DNA of 26,863 bases from a virus. The notes beneath the pieces are model-generated. The model saw only the letters and a program-made list of their open reading frames with translations. It was not told the DNA's origin and searched no databases. Position numbers and translations under genes: made by a program. The stretch covers positions 1-26,863 of IMG/VR virus record IMGVR_UViG_3300005935_000106. One strand, given 5' to 3'. Positions 41 through 26,024 of this stretch are shown here, piece by piece. Each line of letters begins with the position of its first letter. The stretch's first letter is position 1.

Positions 41-390
41 AGGACAGATCCACGGTACCTTTATACAATATAACGTGTAGAGCAATGGCAAGTGTACAAT
101 TCCTCCGTCCTGTCCTATGTCATAGTTATCTGTTTACGTCCAACAAATAGAGAACAGTTTAAAGTTTGCCATACCTAACCAGTATGGCCTTATACTCAAA
201 GGATTAACCTCCTGAGATAAATATTTGAGTGCCCTCGCTCGGAATGACTGGGGGCTTTATACTAAACCCTGGGTCGGGATGATGTCCGTTAACGTTAGTG
301 TCCGTTTGATAGAAACCCTAAGCCAACAGACCGGGTTAGTAATGCTTAATTGCCGAAAACCACAAGTCGGAGATAACAAGTTGGCTCAGG
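41..390 (+). ncRNA. Candidate large structured RNA or long leader ahead of the packaging genes
   Basis: This stretch has no gene on either strand that I can support and is less AT-rich than its surroundings. It contains many perfect complementary segments: 41-47 with 110-116 (7 bp) extended by 52-55 with 105-108; 168-174 with 182-188 (7 bp, 7-nt loop); 194-200 with 224-230 (7 bp, 23-nt loop); 231-236 with 250-255 (6 bp, one G-U); 261-275 with 329-340 (12 paired positions with bulges); 321-327 with 380-386 (7 bp); and 353-356 with 367-370. The sixth set lies partly inside the loop of the fifth, which predicts a pseudoknot. I do not recognise the family. It does not read as rRNA, RNase P RNA, tRNA or a group I intron. 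It could be a free viral RNA in the style of the large ornate phage RNAs, or the 5' leader of the terminase operon. Strand is inferred from gene direction. Confidence 0.55.
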
Positions 391-394
391 ACAC

Positions 395-402
395 TTTATA
401 AT
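395..402 (+). promoter_or_regulatory. Candidate TATA box for the packaging operon
   Basis: TTTATAAT lies about 40 bases before the ATG at 438, placing a start of transcription near 424 and giving a short leader. It sits just 3' of the last predicted helix of the structured RNA, so the RNA and the operon may be separate transcripts. Confidence 0.4.
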
Positions 403-890: not shown

Positions 891-1264
891 TGAAAATTCC
901 GCTATTTGTTAATAAGCTATTGAGAAAGAATGTACCTGTCTATGATAAATACGCATATTTCAAATTAGCATATAGTCGTGGTGCGAACCAACTACAGATA
1001 TTAAGGGAAATAATGGCTGCAACTCCCGAGCTTATTATTCTGTTTGGGATTACTAAGTTTGATTTCACGCAACAAATAATGGAGAAAGTACCTACATGGT
1101 TGTGGGCGTTATTGCTTGCCATGTTCTTATTCATTGAGAAGTTTATGACATTCTATGTTGGGCATATAGACCTTCAGAATAGGTTAATGGATAGGGATAT
1201 CTCGTTATCTAATAAATATAATCCTGAGATACAAAAATTATTAAAAGGGGGGAAAATAGAATGA
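887..1264 (+). CDS. Small membrane protein of unknown function
   Basis: This 125-residue protein has a soluble N-terminal part of about 45 residues, a moderately hydrophobic stretch (TPELIILFGIT, about 46-56) and one convincing transmembrane helix (WLWALLLAMFLFIEKFMTFYVG, about 71-92, shown here as a 22-residue region whose core is LWALLLAMFLF). A charged tail follows. The ATG overlaps the stop of the preceding gene (ATGATGA), so the two are probably translationally coupled; the second ATG at 890 is an equally possible start. The next gene again overlaps by four bases. I do not recognise the family. Its place beside terminase genes does not by itself define a role; a holin or membrane anchor is possible but unsupported. 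Confidence 0.6.
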   Translation: MMKIPLFVNKLLRKNVPVYDKYAYFKLAYSRGANQLQILREIMAATPELIILFGITKFDFTQQIMEKVPTWLWALLLAMFLFIEKFMTFYVGHIDLQNRLMDRDISLSNKYNPEIQKLLKGGKIE

Positions 1265-1977
1265 CATTAAACGTACAATCAGATAGAACCGCGTTACTTT
1301 TCATACGTGATAAGAAAGAACAGCATGAAATAATTATCAATGTCCCTAAGTTTGTTGCTAGAAAATTCGATGCTAAGAAAAACAAATACACCATCATGTT
1401 TGACTGTGACTTAAACAAGTATGAAAGAATAATAAAGCATAAGATTAACAAAGATATTCAAGAAATGTATCTAACCATATCCGATGATCCTAATGCACAT
1501 TTCTATCCTTCAGGTGGGCTCAGTATGGGTTATATAACGATAAACTTCGCAATAATAAAAGCTAAGTTATTATCTAAATCACCCGTAGTTATAGAGACAA
1601 ATACGCTAGATTACTTTAAGCATAAGTTATATCTTCCTCCTAGGATTGCTGATGATACGGCAGGTTTCACAGGGCATAATGCGATAAATGTATTATTTGA
1701 TTTTAATCCTAAGATTCTTAGCATGGCTGAGACGACATACCTATTTAAGCCAATTCTTACTGACGATGTTAAGATAATATCGAAGATAAAAGGGTGTGAT
1801 GGTAAGAATTTATTTTCTTATTTCAATTTCAAACCTACGAGTGTTTTTAATCCATGCGTAGTGCAGCATAATGAATTCGAGACAGCCGAGGATTTAAATA
1901 AAATATATCAAGACACTGTGAAGCAGTTTCTTAATAATAAACCAGGGGTGGATCTTAATGCAAAAGATATGCACTAA
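1261..1977 (+). CDS. Conserved-looking hypothetical protein
   Basis: This 238-residue soluble protein has mixed alpha/beta character and no signal peptide or membrane segment. I do not recognise a domain. Visible features are a basic N-terminal third (VPKFVARKFDAKKNKYT), a glycine-containing segment GGLSMGYITINFAI in the middle, and two cysteines near residues 180 and 199. The start codon overlaps the stop of the previous gene in an ATGA arrangement, which supports this start. The stop lies beyond the ATG of the next small gene (1958), an overlap of 20 bases. Codon use and density match the surrounding genes, so it is very likely real even though the function is unknown. Confidence 0.65.
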   Translation: MTLNVQSDRTALLFIRDKKEQHEIIINVPKFVARKFDAKKNKYTIMFDCDLNKYERIIKHKINKDIQEMYLTISDDPNAHFYPSGGLSMGYITINFAIIKAKLLSKSPVVIETNTLDYFKHKLYLPPRIADDTAGFTGHNAINVLFDFNPKILSMAETTYLFKPILTDDVKIISKIKGCDGKNLFSYFNFKPTSVFNPCVVQHNEFETAEDLNKIYQDTVKQFLNNKPGVDLNAKDMH

Positions 1978-2095
1978 ATGTAATTTCGTATATGAGACTG
2001 AAACAAAGTGTCCTGAGTGTGGGTGCATAACATTCAATAAAGATGAAGTGAAAAAGAAACCCAAACCATTTATAGTATTCGGAGGCGGTATGTGA
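1958..2095 (+). CDS. 45-residue zinc-ribbon protein
   Basis: The product is 45 residues with two cysteine pairs: CTKC at residues 5-8 and CPECGC at 18-23. The CxxC...CxxCGC spacing is that of a small zinc ribbon. The tail is basic (KKKPKPF) and ends in Phe-Gly-Gly-Gly-Met. The start has a purine-rich GGGGTGG stretch nearby and overlaps the end of the gene before; the stop overlaps the next ATG (TGATG). This tight packing and the clean zinc pattern argue that it is a real gene. Function unknown; such ribbons usually mediate nucleic acid or protein contacts. Confidence 0.6.
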   Translation: MQKICTKCNFVYETETKCPECGCITFNKDEVKKKPKPFIVFGGGM

Positions 2096-2268
2096 TGAAA
2101 ATATGTAAAAAAGCATTAGAAAGACTTGAAAATGAAAAGTTGATTCAAAAATTAAAAAATCAACTTATATGTCCTATGTGTGCTGAAGATTTAGAAATGA
2201 ACAACATAGGTTCACAACACGTTCCTGAGTGGGAATATAAATGTAAGAAATGTGGTGTTATAGAATGA
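2095..2268 (+). CDS. 57-residue zinc-ribbon protein
   Basis: The product is 57 residues. It begins with a charged helical segment (about residues 5-24), followed by CPMC at 26-29 and CKKCG at 50-54, giving a CxxC-20-CxxC zinc ribbon. The ATG overlaps the stop of the preceding zinc-ribbon gene (TGATG) and its own stop overlaps the next ATG (ATGA), so three small genes read as one coupled unit. I cannot assign a function beyond metal binding. A similar ribbon pattern recurs in the small genes at the far end of the window (26109 onward). Confidence 0.6.
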   Translation: MKICKKALERLENEKLIQKLKNQLICPMCAEDLEMNNIGSQHVPEWEYKCKKCGVIE

Positions 2269-2498
2269 AAGCTCAGATCAAAAAAGAATATTGGGAAAAA
2301 TACATCAAAGGAACTTCTGATGCATTAGCTTGGACTCATGATTGGTGTTATGAAATTGTTAAAATATCAGATGATCAAATTACACTGAAAACAATAGTTA
2401 CGAGTGCAACAATTAATTTAATTGGAGAACGTGAAGATGGTGATTCAGTTACCAGGAGAAGAACATTCAATAAAGACGATTTAATCATGGGGGATTAA
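2265..2498 (+). CDS. Hypothetical 77-residue protein
   Basis: The protein starts MKAQIKKEYW, at an ATG that overlaps the upstream stop (ATGA). An in-frame upstream ATG at 2250 would overlap the zinc-ribbon gene further and is less likely. It is Trp/Tyr-rich at the N-terminus (WEKYIKG, WTHDWCYEIV), then predicted beta strands and a charged end (RRRTFNKDDLIMGD). The strand pattern (Y-E-I-V-K-I ... I-T-L-K-T-I ... F-N-K-D-D-L) resembles a small SH3-like barrel, but I cannot name a family. It lies in the coupled run of small genes between the two terminase subunits. Confidence 0.55.
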   Translation: MKAQIKKEYWEKYIKGTSDALAWTHDWCYEIVKISDDQITLKTIVTSATINLIGEREDGDSVTRRRTFNKDDLIMGD

Positions 2499-2499
2499 T

Positions 2500-2628
2500 A
2501 TGAAAATAATTGATAGAGTTGATATGATGACATATGTAGAAGGAACAGAAGCAGATTGCAAAGAGTGGTTATGGCACAGATTCCGAACTCAACCAGGTAA
2601 TTTCTATCGGTTTAAATTGGTGTTCTAA
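2500..2628 (+). CDS. Possible 42-residue protein
   Basis: An ATG one base after the previous stop, preceded by GGGGGATTA, opens a 42-codon frame rich in charged and aromatic residues (CKEWLWHRFRTQPGNFYRF). It ends one base before the next ATG. Only spacing and the purine-rich leader support it; no family is recognised. It may also be a remnant of a longer gene. Confidence 0.4.
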   Translation: MKIIDRVDMMTYVEGTEADCKEWLWHRFRTQPGNFYRFKLVF

Positions 2629-2629
2629 G

Positions 2630-3244
2630 ATGGCGCACTTACTATTCTTTAAGATGTGTCCTAGTTTTGTAACAGGACCTAACATAATGAAAGGCAACAT
2701 GGAAATAACAGACGAACTGGTAGATAATATGAAAATACCGTATGATGCTGTTAGAAAAGGTTACAACAAACCCTTGACTTCAACAATGCAATTCAAGAAC
2801 ATACGAATCAAAAAGGAATGCATCAATAAATTAGCCAGCGTTCTTCATACATCGATCCTTCTTAATCCGATTGATAATGATATGACACTTAAACGAATTT
2901 TATTCCCTGTATTTAATAAGAATGATAATCAAAGAGCCACAGTTGGTTCAATGATTCAAGTAATTCAATTATTATCAAAATGGATTAATAGAAGGAAAAC
3001 ATTGTCTGTTATGTTTGGTTTAATAGGTTTGTTTGAACTATTGATAACTCATTCTTTTGTTAATTTTATATTATTTATATTATTTATATTATTTATATTG
3101 TTTCAACCAATTCAACAAGTTGGATATCTTAAAAACCGTGAATCAGATCGTGGACGTGGCATTGGTGGTTCAGGAGTTTGGTCGTATAATTTTATATTTG
3201 GACAATTGAAAGATATTGACAACGGGAATGGTGAGGAACTTTAG
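2630..3244 (+). CDS. Hypothetical membrane protein with in-frame FIL repeats
   Basis: This 204-residue protein has a mostly soluble first half and a strongly hydrophobic region at about residues 124-160. That region is built partly from four copies of the tripeptide Phe-Ile-Leu encoded by a 9-bp tandem repeat (3065-3100). After it comes a Gly/Arg-rich polar stretch (RESDRGRGIGGSGVW) and a short acidic end. The last codon abuts the large terminase start with no gap. I do not recognise the family. The hydrophobic stretch could span the membrane once or twice. The low-complexity repeat suggests recent expansion, and the product could be variable between relatives. Early residues do not look like a signal peptide. 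A degraded or fused gene is possible. Confidence 0.5.
   Translation: MAHLLFFKMCPSFVTGPNIMKGNMEITDELVDNMKIPYDAVRKGYNKPLTSTMQFKNIRIKKECINKLASVLHTSILLNPIDNDMTLKRILFPVFNKNDNQRATVGSMIQVIQLLSKWINRRKTLSVMFGLIGLFELLITHSFVNFILFILFILFILFQPIQQVGYLKNRESDRGRGIGGSGVWSYNFIFGQLKDIDNGNGEEL
3065..3100 (+). repeat. Four tandem copies of a 9-bp unit (TTTATATTA)
   Basis: The unit TTTATATTA occurs four times head to tail, the last copy ending TTG. It is in frame and encodes Phe-Ile-Leu each time. Because the unit is a multiple of three, copy-number changes would lengthen or shorten the hydrophobic segment without breaking the gene. Confidence 0.9.
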
Positions 3245-4468
3245 ATGGGTGCTGTAATAAGTAACGTCTTTGAGCCTTTTCCTTGGCAAATACCTGCGCT
3301 TAGAGATAAGTCGCCAACAGTTCTTTTAACAGGTGGAGCTGGCGGTGGTAAATCTCGATGTGCCTATGAAAAGCTCCATGCTTATTTAATGAAATATCCT
3401 GGAGCTACTGGCTTACTTCTTAGAAAAGATAAAACATCACTAAGTAATTCCGCATTACTTGCAATACAGTACGGTGTTATGAATAATGATCCTAAAATAA
3501 AGATGATTAGATCCCTTAGTAGGTTCGAGTATTGGAATGGTAGTTTTCTTTGTTGGGGTGGCGTATACGATGAAAGACAGCGTGAAGCTCTTAAATCCAT
3601 AGGTAAAGAAGGTAATGTTGATTTCACATTAATGGAAGAAGCAAATGCGTTTTCTGAAGAGGATTATAATCTTATTTTAACAAGGATGCGTGGTACTGCT
3701 GCACCATGGCGACAAATACTGCCGTGTACAAATCCAGACCATCCAAAACACTGGATAAAGAGAAGACTCATTGATGGCAAAGAAGCATCTGTCTATTATT
3801 CTAAAGCTGCAGATAACCCTAATAATCCTGCAGATTACATTGCTAGTTTAAACAAATTAACAGGCGTCCAGAAAGAACGTATGGTATACGGTAAATGGGT
3901 TCGTGCAGAAGGAGTTATCTATAAATCGTTCAATGAAGAGAAACACGTTGTTAATGATTTTGGAATTTCTATACAAGATTATCAACAGATAATATTTGGA
4001 GCTGATGCTAACTTTGCAAAGCCTAGAGCTGGTTTAATAATAGGCATTACAGGAAAGGAATATCATATCATAGATGAATTCTATAAACGAGAAACAGAAG
4101 TTGAACAGCTCATTCATTGGTTAGAAGCAAATGCAAAGGGATTTATGCGACGTATGAATGGTTATCACGATCCGTCAGATCCGCAGAGTGTTATGAAAAT
4201 CAATAATGGCAATATGTTATCGTGTGATAAAGCACAGAACGCGGTTCTACCTGGCATTGTTGCAGTACAAGGTTTATTCCAGGCTAATAAAATAATCATA
4301 CATTCAAGATGCGTTAATTTGATTTCTGAATTATTATCTTATGCTTGGAAAAAAGGCAGAGAAGACGAAACTCCAGAAAAAGAGAATGATCACTTAATGG
4401 ATGCATTACGATATGCGATATATTCTAATGTCCCTAAAGCAAAACCCATACCGGGGCGATTTTTTTAA
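3245..4468 (+). CDS. terL: Terminase large subunit
   Basis: This 407-residue protein is the packaging motor ATPase and nuclease that moves genomic DNA into the prohead through the portal. The N-terminal ATPase shows Walker A GGAGGGKS at residues 30-37, an acidic Walker B DFTLMEEA at 126-133 with the catalytic Glu pair, and a coupling-type motif CTNP further on. The C-terminal nuclease fold starts with FGADANF, placing a likely metal-binding Asp at residue 254, and ends with NDHLMDALRYA, the usual last acidic cluster of the RNase H-like nuclease. Length is in the normal range for compact terminases. The ATG follows directly after the upstream stop. It ends in a T-rich codon run. The call is firm at the family level. 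Confidence 0.95.
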   Translation: MGAVISNVFEPFPWQIPALRDKSPTVLLTGGAGGGKSRCAYEKLHAYLMKYPGATGLLLRKDKTSLSNSALLAIQYGVMNNDPKIKMIRSLSRFEYWNGSFLCWGGVYDERQREALKSIGKEGNVDFTLMEEANAFSEEDYNLILTRMRGTAAPWRQILPCTNPDHPKHWIKRRLIDGKEASVYYSKAADNPNNPADYIASLNKLTGVQKERMVYGKWVRAEGVIYKSFNEEKHVVNDFGISIQDYQQIIFGADANFAKPRAGLIIGITGKEYHIIDEFYKRETEVEQLIHWLEANAKGFMRRMNGYHDPSDPQSVMKINNGNMLSCDKAQNAVLPGIVAVQGLFQANKIIIHSRCVNLISELLSYAWKKGREDETPEKENDHLMDALRYAIYSNVPKAKPIPGRFF

Positions 4469-6897: not shown

Positions 6898-6905
6898 TTT
6901 ATATA
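6898..6905 (+). promoter_or_regulatory. TATA box of the 29-codon gene
   Basis: TTTATATA immediately follows the stop of the minor head gene and is centred about 26 bases before the ATG at 6927, matching the leaderless promoter layout seen elsewhere here. Confidence 0.6.
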
Positions 6906-7061: not shown

Positions 7062-8189
7062 ATGGATGAGTATTTCGATAGTAATTTAAGAGTTGAAGGT
7101 TTTGATTTTGAAGAAACTGATAATAAATTCATAATTTTCTCAGTACCTATTTTAGCAGAAATGGTGCAAGATTATAATGATGGCATGGTTCTTAAAGATG
7201 CAACCGAGATTAAAAAAGTGGTTGTTCAAAACATACCGCTTACAATGGTTGACGAATCCCCATCACATCCCGAATTTCTAACTGGCGCAGAACCGTCTTA
7301 TGTTGCCGATGTGCAAGTTGGTTTTATGACAGAACCAACAAGATTAAAGTCTACTGCTGATGTTGCACATAAAAGATATGCGGATTTCATTATCGATAAT
7401 AACGATAAAACAAAAGTTCTTATTGACGATTATAAAAATGGCGGGTTTATTGATACAAGTATCGGTTTCAAATGTAAAGATGATAAAACCCCTGGAACTT
7501 TCAAAGGTAAAAAATACGATTATATTCAAAGAGATATTGTGTTAGATCATAATGCAATTCTCATAGATGCCCAAGGTCGAAAGGCTACGGGTAGAATGCC
7601 GAGTCCTATTGGTGGAATTGGCGCAGATTCAAACAATAAAAAAATACCGGGTGATAATATGTCTGAAGACATTAAAGAACTACAAAAAGATAATGCTGCC
7701 CTGAAAAAACAAATTGATGACTCTAATAAAAAATTAGAGAAAATTGAGGCTGATGCTAAACTTGCTAAAGAAAAAGCAGATGATGAAGCTGATGCAAAAA
7801 AAACTCAGGATGCTAAAACTGTTGAAGAACAGAAAACAAGAATGGATGAACTTACAATCGAACGGGATAATTTCAAGAAAGAAATTGATTCCAAAGGTGT
7901 AGAGCTTCAGAAATTTAAAGATGCTGAAAAAGAAGTAATGGATGCAAAAAGAGACGCTCTTAAAAAAGCAGATCCAGACCATGCAGAACTTTACGATACA
8001 GCCTCAGAAGAGCTTATCACTAAGTTTGCTGATAAGTTGAATGAGAACAAAGACAGTAAATCCAAAAATATCGGTGCTGACATGATGCCAATTAGTAGGA
8101 GTGCTAATGTTGCTGGTGATAAACGGATGAAAAACTGGAAGGCTAACGGTAATGTAGAACCTTCTAAGAAAGACAAGGGTGATGAATAA
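7062..8189 (+). CDS. Prohead protease fused to scaffold (DUF2213-like)
   Basis: This 375-residue protein has two parts. Residues about 10-185 resemble the DUF2213 type of prohead protease: VDESPSHPEF near 63-72, a segment FIDTSIGFKC around Ser133, then DYIQRDIVLDHNAILIDAQGR with His163 and a trailing Gly-Arg. The Ser and His are the likely catalytic pair. Residues about 200-340 are a long, charged coiled coil rich in Lys, Glu, Asp and Ala, as in scaffold proteins, and the tail is basic. The protease would clear the scaffold and trim head proteins during maturation. An internal start at codon 200 may make the scaffold alone. It lies directly upstream of the decoration-like and major capsid genes, the expected order. 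Catalytic residue choice is by eye. Confidence 0.8.
   Translation: MDEYFDSNLRVEGFDFEETDNKFIIFSVPILAEMVQDYNDGMVLKDATEIKKVVVQNIPLTMVDESPSHPEFLTGAEPSYVADVQVGFMTEPTRLKSTADVAHKRYADFIIDNNDKTKVLIDDYKNGGFIDTSIGFKCKDDKTPGTFKGKKYDYIQRDIVLDHNAILIDAQGRKATGRMPSPIGGIGADSNNKKIPGDNMSEDIKELQKDNAALKKQIDDSNKKLEKIEADAKLAKEKADDEADAKKTQDAKTVEEQKTRMDELTIERDNFKKEIDSKGVELQKFKDAEKEVMDAKRDALKKADPDHAELYDTASEELITKFADKLNENKDSKSKNIGADMMPISRSANVAGDKRMKNWKANGNVEPSKKDKGDE
7659..8189 (+). CDS. Likely internally started scaffold protein (nested)
   Basis: Inside the protease-scaffold gene, in the same frame, Met200 (MSEDIKELQKDN) is preceded by GGGTGATAAT, which contains the GGTGAT ribosome binding core at a spacing of four to five bases. 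It falls exactly at the junction between the protease domain and the coiled coil. The product would be 176 residues of scaffold alone. Nested protease/scaffold genes of this kind are established in phages such as lambda (C and Nu3). Expression as a separate protein is inference. Confidence 0.55.
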   Translation: MSEDIKELQKDNAALKKQIDDSNKKLEKIEADAKLAKEKADDEADAKKTQDAKTVEEQKTRMDELTIERDNFKKEIDSKGVELQKFKDAEKEVMDAKRDALKKADPDHAELYDTASEELITKFADKLNENKDSKSKNIGADMMPISRSANVAGDKRMKNWKANGNVEPSKKDKGDE

Positions 8190-23302: not shown

Positions 23303-23337
23303 TACGTATGATTTGGTGTTTTGTACGTATTGGCGCC
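23301..23337 (+). repeat. Palindrome repeat A with GGCGCC box
   Basis: A 30-bp unit (23301-23330) begins AATACGTATGATTT and ends TGTTTTGTACGTAT, so its ends form an inverted pair ATACGTA...TACGTAT. It is followed by TGGCGCC. The unit recurs at 23466-23495 with 28 of 30 bases the same. Confidence 0.9.
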
Positions 23338-23375
23338 TGAACACCCCCGCCCCTTGACTTCTTATGGAAAACTCT

Positions 23376-23388
23376 ATTTCTCTTTTTT
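23376..23388 (+). terminator. T-rich terminator after the helical protein gene
   Basis: A pyrimidine run ending in six T residues (23383-23388) lies 75 bases past the last stop, inside the palindrome region. It would end the transcript that begins near 22312. Confidence 0.45.
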
Positions 23389-23404
23389 GGATGTTTTAAT
23401 AGTG

Positions 23405-23425
23405 TACGTACGTACTACGTACGTA
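23405..23425 (+). repeat. Double TACGTACGTA palindrome
   Basis: TACGTACGTA occurs twice, separated by one C. Each copy is its own reverse complement, so the site presents overlapping TACGTA half-sites on both strands, in the middle between repeats A and B. Confidence 0.9.
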
Positions 23426-23438
23426 TAGAAAAAAAAGC

Positions 23439-23459
23439 ATTAAATATATAATATATATA
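23439..23459. other. AT-only tract beside repeat B
   Basis: About 20 bases of only A and T, beginning ATTAAATATATAATATATA, adjoin the GGCGCC box of repeat B. It could be a DNA unwinding element of an origin or an extra TATA box. I see no gene placed correctly for a promoter here. Confidence 0.4.
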
Positions 23460-23495
23460 GGCGCCAATACGTATGATTTATTGTTTTGTACGTAT
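23460..23495 (+). repeat. Palindrome repeat B with GGCGCC box
   Basis: GGCGCC followed by the same 30-bp unit as repeat A. Because the box is on the other side of the unit, GGCGCCAATACGTA here is the exact reverse complement of TACGTATTGGCGCC at 23324-23337. The sequence upstream of the next promoter therefore holds both a direct and an inverted relation to repeat A. Confidence 0.9.
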
Positions 23496-23790: not shown

Positions 23791-24151
23791 TATTTCTCAA
23801 GATATACAAAAACGGAAGGAAGAGTGCAGCTTTAATTTTTCAGATTGGGTTGAAAAGATATATAGAGATTCTTTCATGAGTATTGATGATAAAAAACGTG
23901 AGATTGCAGAGTCTGAAAAAAGAATAATACTTCTAAAAGATGAAATCGATCAAATAGAAATTCGTAAAGAAACATTTGGTAGTTCTTTAACACGTGATGA
24001 GCTTAGATTCATAAAACAAATCCCTAAATTATTATTTGAAGGAAAAGAATTAGAACCGTTATGTACTCGTTTTAATATTACATTTAAGAGAAAATTCACA
24101 AAACAGGAATTGAAATCATATGTTAAGTTCTATAGTAAAAAATCAAGCTGA
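23753..24151 (+). CDS. Ribbon-helix-helix DNA-binding protein with coiled coil
   Basis: The 132-residue protein starts at ATG 23753 (MGKSHKTISIPDD); ATG 23744 in frame is also possible. Residues 6-30 follow the ribbon-helix-helix form: strand KTISIPDD, helix ISQDIQKRKEECS, then FNFSDWVEKIYRDSF as the second helix. Such domains dimerise and bind short palindromes. The rest has a charged coiled coil (REIAESEKRIILLKDEIDQI) and a helical C-terminus rich in Lys. It lies in the first operon after the TACGTA palindromes, which would be natural operators for it. Autoregulation is therefore likely but not shown. Confidence 0.65.
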   Translation: MGKSHKTISIPDDISQDIQKRKEECSFNFSDWVEKIYRDSFMSIDDKKREIAESEKRIILLKDEIDQIEIRKETFGSSLTRDELRFIKQIPKLLFEGKELEPLCTRFNITFKRKFTKQELKSYVKFYSKKSS

Positions 24152-24536
24152 TGTTAAGAAATTAAGATATATCTATATTATAGATGTTGATAATAGAGGC
24201 AACAAGAGTAAGTTTTACGGTATTAAATTATGTCATTATGTGGGACAAACCGATGATATTATCAGAAGATTGAAACAACATATCCTGTGTTTGAATAGTA
24301 AATTCCTCTCATATAATTTCAGAAATGCTCAGAAGAAATTAGTTTATGTTGATTATATATATGGTACTGAATATGAAGCCATAGAGTTAGAAGTTAAATT
24401 AAAAATAATGAAGCGAGATAAGAAAATAGATTTGATTTCTTCTGAACAGAATAAATTGATTAAGTATGTGCCGTTGAAAGCCATAATTTTAAAGAAATAT
24501 CATAAAGATGAAGAACAAATATGTATTAGAATGTGA
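24120..24536 (+). CDS. GIY-YIG family nuclease
   Basis: This 138-residue protein shows the GIY-YIG core: YIYII at residues 17-21 (first motif), a longer than usual insert, then HYVGQTDDIIRRLKQH at 39-54 with the second motif Tyr40-Val-Gly, Arg49/Arg50 and His54, and the catalytic Glu in the segment YEAIELE at about 85-91. The family cuts DNA with one metal ion and includes homing, repair and phage enzymes. No DNA-binding extension of the homing type is seen; a short basic C-terminal end follows. The start overlaps the preceding gene by 32 bases and there is no later start codon before the first motif. It neighbours a DNA methyltransferase, so it might be the matching nuclease, but a general viral nuclease is as likely. 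Confidence 0.75.
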   Translation: MLSSIVKNQADVKKLRYIYIIDVDNRGNKSKFYGIKLCHYVGQTDDIIRRLKQHILCLNSKFLSYNFRNAQKKLVYVDYIYGTEYEAIELEVKLKIMKRDKKIDLISSEQNKLIKYVPLKAIILKKYHKDEEQICIRM

Positions 24537-24542
24537 TTGAAA

Positions 24543-25901
24543 GTGGAAAATAAAATAAGAATGTTTGAGGGATGTGCGGGTTATGGTGGCGGATCGTTTG
24601 GATTAAAGAAAGCAGGAATACAATTTGAGTGTGTTGGCTATTCAGAGATTGATAAGTACGCAATACAATGCTATGAACATAACCATAGAGAAGTTGTTGA
24701 TGATTGGGTTCCATATAATGGCTCAAAACGATTTATGGGAACAATGAAAATTCCTAAGAATTATGGTAATATATCTCTAATAAATCCAGAAGATATTCCT
24801 GATTTTGATTTATTCTTAGCGGGGTTCCCATGCCAATCATTTAGTATTGCAGGTAAAAGAGAAGGCTTTGAATCTAAAAAAACAGGCAATATATTCTTTG
24901 ATATATGTAAAATACTAAACCATAAGAAACCTGGGTATGTCGTATTAGAAAATGTGGCAGGTATCTTAAGTCATGATAATGGTAAAACTCATAAAACAGT
25001 TTTAGATACATTAAAGAAAATAGGTTATGGTGTGGCGTGGAAATGTCTTAATTCTAAAAATTATGGGATTCCTCAGAATAGAGAACGTGTCTGGTATGTG
25101 TGTAAATTAGGCGGTTGGGATTTCATGGAGTTTACGTTTCCCGAGAAAGAGAAATTGAAATTAAAACTTAAAGATATTCTTGAAGATGAAGTTGATGAGA
25201 AGTATTATCTGAAAGAAGAAACTGTAAAACAATTATTACCAAACCAAGATGTATCGTATTGTATTGATGCTAATTATTTCAAGGGGACAAATATAAAAGG
25301 GTTTATCGAAAAAAAAAGATGGCAAATTATTCAAGTAAATAATCCAAAGCATTCTAATGATAGATTATATTCAGAAAAAGGAATAAGCCCAACATTAAAT
25401 GCTATGCAAGGTGGAAACAGACAACCGTTCATAGTAGCGTCGCGAGGAAGAAATCCTAAGGATCCTTCAGATAGAACAACGGGAAGTCCTACAGAACAAA
25501 GACTAGAACCGCAGACAGACGGGACGAGTAATTGCTTATCAACAGTTCAGAAAGATAATTATGTATGTGTTAAGAATGCAACAGCTAAAAGGTATCAAGA
25601 AGTAAAACCTGGCGATGGAATAAACCTCGAACAACCAAATTCTGAAACAAGGCGTGGAAGAGTACAATCGCAATCTGTTGGTACATTGCAAACAAATGAC
25701 CAACGTGACGTATTAACTGAAGATATGAGAATAAGAAAGCTTACACCGACCGAGTGTTTCAGACTCATGGGGTTCTTAGATGACGGAATAAACCTAGAAG
25801 GATTATCAAATTCTCAACGCTATAAATTAGCTGGGAACGGTTGGGATATTAATTTAGTAAGCAAGATATTTAAGAGATTATTTAGTAATAAATTTCAATA
25901 A
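24543..25901 (+). CDS. DNA (cytosine-5)-methyltransferase
   Basis: The protein is 452 residues from the GTG at 24543, which has GTGAT five bases upstream; the TTG at 24537 is an alternative. Motif I is FEGCAGYGGGSFGL (8-21) for SAM binding, motif IV FPCQSFS with catalytic Cys97, motif VI LENV (135-138), motif VIII QNRERVW (178-184), then a variable target recognition region, and motifs IX RKLTPTECFRLMGF and X KLAGNGWDINLV at the end. All catalytic motifs are intact. The recognition region contains GRNPKDPSDRTTGSPTEQRL, a segment I know from many phage C5 methyltransferases of bacteria, so the gene probably moved between virus groups. It likely protects viral DNA from host restriction. The target site cannot be read from sequence. 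Confidence 0.92.
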   Translation: MENKIRMFEGCAGYGGGSFGLKKAGIQFECVGYSEIDKYAIQCYEHNHREVVDDWVPYNGSKRFMGTMKIPKNYGNISLINPEDIPDFDLFLAGFPCQSFSIAGKREGFESKKTGNIFFDICKILNHKKPGYVVLENVAGILSHDNGKTHKTVLDTLKKIGYGVAWKCLNSKNYGIPQNRERVWYVCKLGGWDFMEFTFPEKEKLKLKLKDILEDEVDEKYYLKEETVKQLLPNQDVSYCIDANYFKGTNIKGFIEKKRWQIIQVNNPKHSNDRLYSEKGISPTLNAMQGGNRQPFIVASRGRNPKDPSDRTTGSPTEQRLEPQTDGTSNCLSTVQKDNYVCVKNATAKRYQEVKPGDGINLEQPNSETRRGRVQSQSVGTLQTNDQRDVLTEDMRIRKLTPTECFRLMGFLDDGINLEGLSNSQRYKLAGNGWDINLVSKIFKRLFSNKFQ

Positions 25902-25931: not shown

Positions 25932-26024
25932 TCCAAGGGGTCGGTTGGGGAACTCATGATGTAAAGGGCAACCCGGTATTTCTTAGGAATTATCACCTCC
26001 AAGTACCCGACCCCGCCTTTTTTC
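25932..26024 (+). ncRNA. Small structured RNA with anti-Shine-Dalgarno sequence
   Basis: An 8-bp closing stem, GGGGTCGG at 25937-25944 with CCGACCCC at 26007-26014, encloses about 60 bases and is followed directly by a T-rich terminator. A TATA box at 25903-25910 is at the right distance for a start near 25932. The inside includes ATCACCTCC at 25992-26000, identical to the 3' end of archaeal 16S rRNA that pairs with ribosome binding sites, and a weak inner helix CTTAGG with CCT..AAG that would partly cover it. It is GC-rich compared with flanks. It is not a tRNA: no T-loop and no D-arm pattern. It may pair in trans with GGTGAT sites of viral mRNAs, or in cis with the GGAGGTTGAT site at 26095-26104 if transcription reads through. 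Function is inference; the structure and motif are directly visible. Confidence 0.65.
26016..26024 (+). terminator. Terminator of the small RNA
   Basis: CCTTTTTTC directly follows the closing stem of the small RNA. Stem plus T run would end the transcript in either domain of life. Confidence 0.6.

Follow-up and report, generated by a model that had tools for sequence, protein, structure and literature searches.

What does a virus with a tightly packed genome keep in the noncoding DNA that precedes its packaging genes? The question is raised by the window, the complete and linear IMG/VR record IMGVR_UViG_3300005935_000106 (26,863 bases), which carries head and tail genes of a tailed virus (terL, portal, Mu-F-like head protein, prohead protease, major capsid and tape measure) and opens with 437 noncoding bases. 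The reading that we favour, and judge marginally probable, is that these bases form a noncoding-RNA locus of an archaeal tailed virus, in a slot for RNA genes situated just before the packaging and late operon. To our knowledge, the large structured RNAs of tailed viruses come from bacteria and their phages, and they have no known function. The four related, probably archaeal viruses described below, all with a gap in the same place, would constitute a first archaeal set in which such RNAs can be sought. Should the RNA reading fail, the region would be the natural place to seek the packaging or late-promoter site of this virus group.

The noncoding stretch upstream of the small terminase gene

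The locus and its neighbors are arranged as follows:
1–437, + strand: noncoding stretch of raised G+C before terS, truncated by the contig start; proposed RNA locus
395–402, + strand: TATA-like box TTTATAAT of putative function, 43 nt before the terS ATG, with similar boxes at 60 and 256
438–890, + strand: terS (small terminase subunit), 150 aa, with a C-terminal KGYVGFTPDDWDEE motif as in ORFs directly upstream of related terL genes
3245–4468, + strand: terL (large terminase subunit), 407 aa (Pfam Terminase_3 3.8e-16, PHROG terL 1.5e-34)

The gene at 438–890 is assigned as terS because its C-terminal tail (KGYVGFTPDDWD/KGYVGFTPDDWDEE) matches the tail of ORFs beside terL in many related viruses, KGYVGFTPDDWD being common to the ORFs that adjoin related terL genes. 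The initial annotation had placed the noncoding stretch ahead of the packaging genes, and it does lie there, with terS starting at 438 and terL starting a further 2.8 kb beyond the TerS start. Five small ORFs (891–3244) separate the two terminase genes; in distant TerL relatives a TerS-like gene directly precedes terL.

The G+C content is 0.403 for 1–437 and 0.434 for 41–395 against 0.338 for the whole record, the stretch is the GC-richest among all intergenic gaps of the record, and a run of at least 437 noncoding bases is unusual in such a dense genome. The initial claim that there is no coding frame is confirmed in that no credible one exists: stops interrupt every frame, two forward frames containing 10–12 of them, and the longest ORF, which has 58 codons and a TTG start (225–401), belongs to no family above cut-off, its best Pfam match (E 0.007) falling far below it. 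A coding role for 1–437 was thus rejected. No clear promoter is present in positions 1–40.

Helices and structure statistics in 41–395

Several helices can be read in the region, all on the + strand:
41–116: helix AGGACAG (41–47) / CTGTCCT (110–116), perfect, 7 bp
168–188: hairpin GCCATAC / GTATGGC (168–174/182–188), 7 bp with a 7-nt loop, also in the MFE and centroid structures
193–231: helix 193–200/224–231, 7 Watson-Crick bp plus one G-U, with 194–200/224–230 perfectly Watson-Crick; it competes with a local CUCA/UGAG hairpin
260–341: long bulged helix 260–275/329–341, 13 bp, with bulges A266 and U270-G271, read from the sequence and by the stem finder
317–390: helix 321–327/380–386, perfectly Watson-Crick, interleaved with 260–275/329–341 as a proposed pseudoknot and extending to 317–319/388–390
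297–395: helix AGTGTCC (297–303) / GGACACT (389–395), perfect, 7 bp, which crosses 260–275/329–341 and excludes the 317–319/388–390 extension
353–370: small hairpin CCGA (353–356) / TCGG (367–370), read from the sequence and modelled

The helices of the initial annotation, including the interleaved pair (there 261–275/329–340 with 321–327/380–386), are present where they had been drawn. The helix at 317–390 appears in the inverted-repeat listing with 11 nt at 91% and belongs to the best pseudoknot pair returned by the stem finder. Their number had been described as far more than expected, which overstates a modest excess. Helices of at least 7 bp amount to 6 in 41–390 against 2.9 in shuffles (28 of 300 shuffles reach 6), and to 8 in 41–400 against 3.4 (3 of 300 shuffles have as many). 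The MFE z scores against shuffles are -0.24 for 1–450, -0.95 for 41–400 and -1.21 for the minus strand; with z of -0.2 to -1.0, the region folds no better than its own shuffles. The best pseudoknot score, -41.2 against -33.4 +/- 3.9 in shuffles, was equalled or bettered by 18 of 400 shuffles, which corresponds to a p of about 0.045 before allowing for the selection of the region, and the region ranks third among 74 equal windows of the record on both helix z and pseudoknot z. The single-sequence structure statistics for the window region are marginal.

The corresponding gap in related viruses

Used as single queries in IMG/VR, TerS and the major capsid protein (MCP) retrieved no relatives, and TerL alone retrieved only relatives of 25–30% identity. 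Two rounds of TerL alignments in IMG/VR (A1, A3) brought in GC-richer viruses, mostly below 45% identity, in which terL comes immediately after a TerS-like gene and which showed no comparable RNA gap in front of terS; alignment A3 found no close relative among genome contigs. A narrower motif alignment (A4) led to record 3300033153_008633 (L234), whose terL and portal are 56% and 43% identical to those of the window. An alignment based on HDPSDPQS, a motif of the group (A5), led to records 3300031227_000189 and 3300035698_006003 (L281/L282) and 3300035698_007669 (L283), with portals 45–46% identical to that of the window, and a portal alignment (A6) added no further members from IMG/VR. The three recognisable IMG/VR relatives, with portals 43–46% identical, thus make up with the window a group of four distinguishable members, which share portal, Mu-F, protease, MCP and terL and which, as far as the present searches show, include no studied virus. 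The window ORF at 2630–3244 has homologs in L281 and L283, placed there after terL and before the portal gene.

Each of the three relatives has a noncoding gap upstream of terL with a G+C content above that of its own genome:
L234, 2835–3281: 447 nt, G+C 0.342 against 0.293 in the genome
L281, about 7227–7527: G+C 0.399 against 0.354 in the genome, with an Rfam tRNA at 7415–7501
L283, 2657–3271: 615 nt, G+C 0.405 against 0.336 in the genome, with no tRNA and no Rfam match

The L234 gap opens with the archaeal-type TATA box GAAACATTTATATATG. Its fold is far stronger than that of its shuffles (z -2.65, none of 100 as good), and this is true of the L283 gap as well (z -3.17, 0 of 20). Rfam-level tRNAs occur at the sites of two of the three relatives, L281 and L234 (in the latter at 3644–3721, beyond the gap), each being the sole one above cut-off in the whole record. 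Inside the L234 gap, positions 3000–3107 fold into a cloverleaf of four arms that has a hairpin inserted into its anticodon arm; the fold energy of this cloverleaf is not unusual by itself (z -1.07). Because of the tRNAs in L234 and L281 and the well-folding gaps in L234 and L283, the slot upstream of terL is seen to hold RNA genes in this group. Occupation of the same slot is nonetheless not proof of homology, since the gap varies in length and content among the relatives and different small ORFs lie between it and terL; terS is recognised beside the gap in the window only.

At the sequence level, no homolog of the 139-nt core of the window was found in the three relatives, local pairwise alignments remaining at shuffle level and blastn returning nothing. 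The covariance model of window positions 258–396 recovered only itself (next best E 2.7), and blastn of the region against phages and plasmids gave no match. L281 (7248–7318) and L283 (2659–2725), whose TerL proteins are 66% identical, have in common an element of 63–71 nt (CGAGGAGTTTAATTTTYTYTYCCTTCATTGAG...) of high identity at the start of the gap; according to its model, this element is absent from the window and from L234. The large pseudoknotted RNA proposed initially stands in part: the relatives lend indirect support to an RNA locus at this place, but the architecture drawn for it is not established, the statistics being marginal. For a new large RNA, a stronger lead than the window's region is the 615-nt gap of L283, which folds best among the four. 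It seems rather unlikely that the pre-terminase gap of this group is the gene for a new class of large RNA with pseudoknots, an archaeal counterpart of GOLLD and ROOL with the L283 gap as its best representative.

Sequence signals make an archaeal host likely. In the window, TATA boxes (TTTATATA/TTTATATT) stand 27–29 bases before the ATG codons at 6898 and 22285, where short unlisted ORFs start, and a TATA box about 27–29 bases before the ATG is the arrangement of leaderless archaeal genes. The cloverleaves at L281 7415–7501 and L234 3000–3107, both missed by ARAGORN with default settings, contain inserts in the anticodon arm; these appear to be of the archaeal/eukaryal kind and suggest tRNA introns in an archaeal virus. 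The portal had one distant match in Thermoplasmatota genomes, and no MCM was found in the four records.

Known RNAs and competing explanations

In the Rfam covariance scan the region matched no family, Phage_pRNA, GOLLD and ROOL included, whether at the gathering score or with the limit relaxed to E 10, the relaxed search giving only two chance snoRNA/thermometer matches, both on the minus strand. The initial failure to match the region to a family is thereby corroborated. For the comparison with packaging RNAs made at the same time, only position speaks. A proposed structured RNA near packaging genes recalls the pRNA of phi29; the window differs in the lack of a match to Phage_pRNA and in having a canonical Terminase_3 TerL with a TerS instead of a phi29-type motor. 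GOLLD and ROOL are reported to occur often near tRNA islands in phages, and GOLLD to rise during lysis (PMC12286853). The region resembles them in being noncoding, in its many helices and proposed pseudoknots and in its tailed-virus genome. As to nearby tRNA genes, two of the three relatives have a tRNA at the matching place and the window itself has none. By contrast, it has no Rfam match to either, which makes this a resemblance of setting only; it measures about 350–400 nt, whereas many GOLLD RNAs exceed 800 nt; and the known members occur in bacteria and their phages, whereas the window virus looks archaeal. Among archaeal tailed viruses, HGTV-1 carries 36 tRNAs (PMC8651126). The viral tRNA genes of archaeal tailed viruses have their counterpart in the corresponding slot of L281 and L234, but none is detectable in the window.

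Like a viral noncoding-RNA locus, the stretch is noncoding, has a G+C content above an AT-rich background and occupies a place that lies beside RNA genes in the relatives. Also counted in favor of an RNA locus were the pseudoknot pair, which falls in the top 5% relative to shuffles and takes third place among the 74 windows, the tRNAs and well-folding gaps of the relatives, the TATA box that opens the L234 gap and the element common to L281 and L283; against it we counted an MFE of the window copy at shuffle level, the absence from the window of a tRNA, of a homolog of the core and of the L281/L283 element, the variable gap of the relatives and the lack of a clear promoter at 1–40. For the window copy we infer transcription, ends, fold and role as follows. 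The promoter would lie at the left end of the contig or outside it, with transcription running toward the late genes, and the product would act as a folded RNA, not as a message. It would probably end near 395, before the separate TATA-like box at 395–402, which could start a separate terS transcript. On the model of GOLLD and ROOL, the RNA might act on its own in late infection and not as a part of the packaging motor.

Alternatively, although we consider it clearly less probable, the region could be a DNA control region containing late-operon promoters, a pac/cosB-like packaging site bound by TerS, or both, the helices being inverted repeats of a binding motif. In lambda, the small-terminase gene comes right after the cos region, and the region studied here likewise directly abuts terS and contains short inverted repeats. 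The 5-mer TGTCC/GGACA has 5 copies in its 437 bases, where its frequency in the rest of the record predicts 0.26. It forms two of the helices, which for that reason may represent a DNA motif repeated in inverted orientation; its recurrence is as compatible with a DNA site as with an RNA. Three of the four copies of CTTTATA in the whole record fall within 1–437, the MFE is no better than that of shuffles, and the contig starts here, as contigs of cos-ended genomes can. On the other hand, for no k-mer does the number of repeats in the region exceed that in its own shuffles, the window record has no reported end repeats, and the contigs of the relatives do not end at the corresponding place. The raised G+C and the structure and tRNA genes at the matching place of the relatives, which depart from a lambda-like cos or pac, point to RNA.

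The noncoding-RNA reading must also be weighed against chance, that is, ordinary intergenic DNA in which a few helices were picked by eye and the positional resemblance to the relatives is fortuitous. An MFE z of -0.24 to -0.95, a pseudoknot p of about 0.045 before allowing for selection and a rank of third in 74 windows are what such DNA could give. We nevertheless hold it unlikely, given the unusual length of 437 or more noncoding bases in a dense genome, a G+C content well above that of the genome and of every other gap, and the RNA that relatives have in this position. It is quite improbable that the stretch represents a tRNA array that has decayed or been rearranged, the counterpart of the tRNAs found in this slot in L281 and L234. 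The segment 41–116, closed by a 7-bp stem, is as long as a tRNA (76 nt), but no T-arm combines with an acceptor stem on the + strand, even with inserts giving a gene of at least 260 nt. No tRNA covariance match was found in the region up to E 10, nor any + strand match with introns allowed, and ARAGORN gave only sub-threshold calls at a density typical of coding DNA. Finally, a group I intron (RF00028) is barely credible and mostly refuted: taking 260–275/329–341 as P3, 321–327/380–386 as P7 and 353–370 as P8 reproduces the order P3-P7-P3'-P8-P7' and the spacing of the core, with one base between P7 and P3', but this likeness is of topology only, as there is no Intron_gpI covariance match up to E 10 and no upstream exon, only 45 nt (276–320) remain for P4-P6, without P4, P5 or P6, and the helix 297–303/389–395 would cut through that domain.

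Further features were observed toward the right end of the window. An ORF with a GIY-YIG domain (24120–24536) is immediately followed by one for a C5 cytosine DNA methylase (24537–25901). In the intergenic stretch 25937–26023, GGGGTCGG (25937–25944) and CCGACCCC (26007–26014) close a structure of about 80 nt followed by six T, for which no Rfam match above cut-off was found and which is a candidate terminator or small RNA. At 23324–23473, a perfect 15-nt inverted repeat (TACGTATTGGCGCCT / AGGCGCCAATACGTA) surrounds 120 bases that include TACGTACGTA palindromes, and is possibly an operator, an origin or the remnant of a mobile element.
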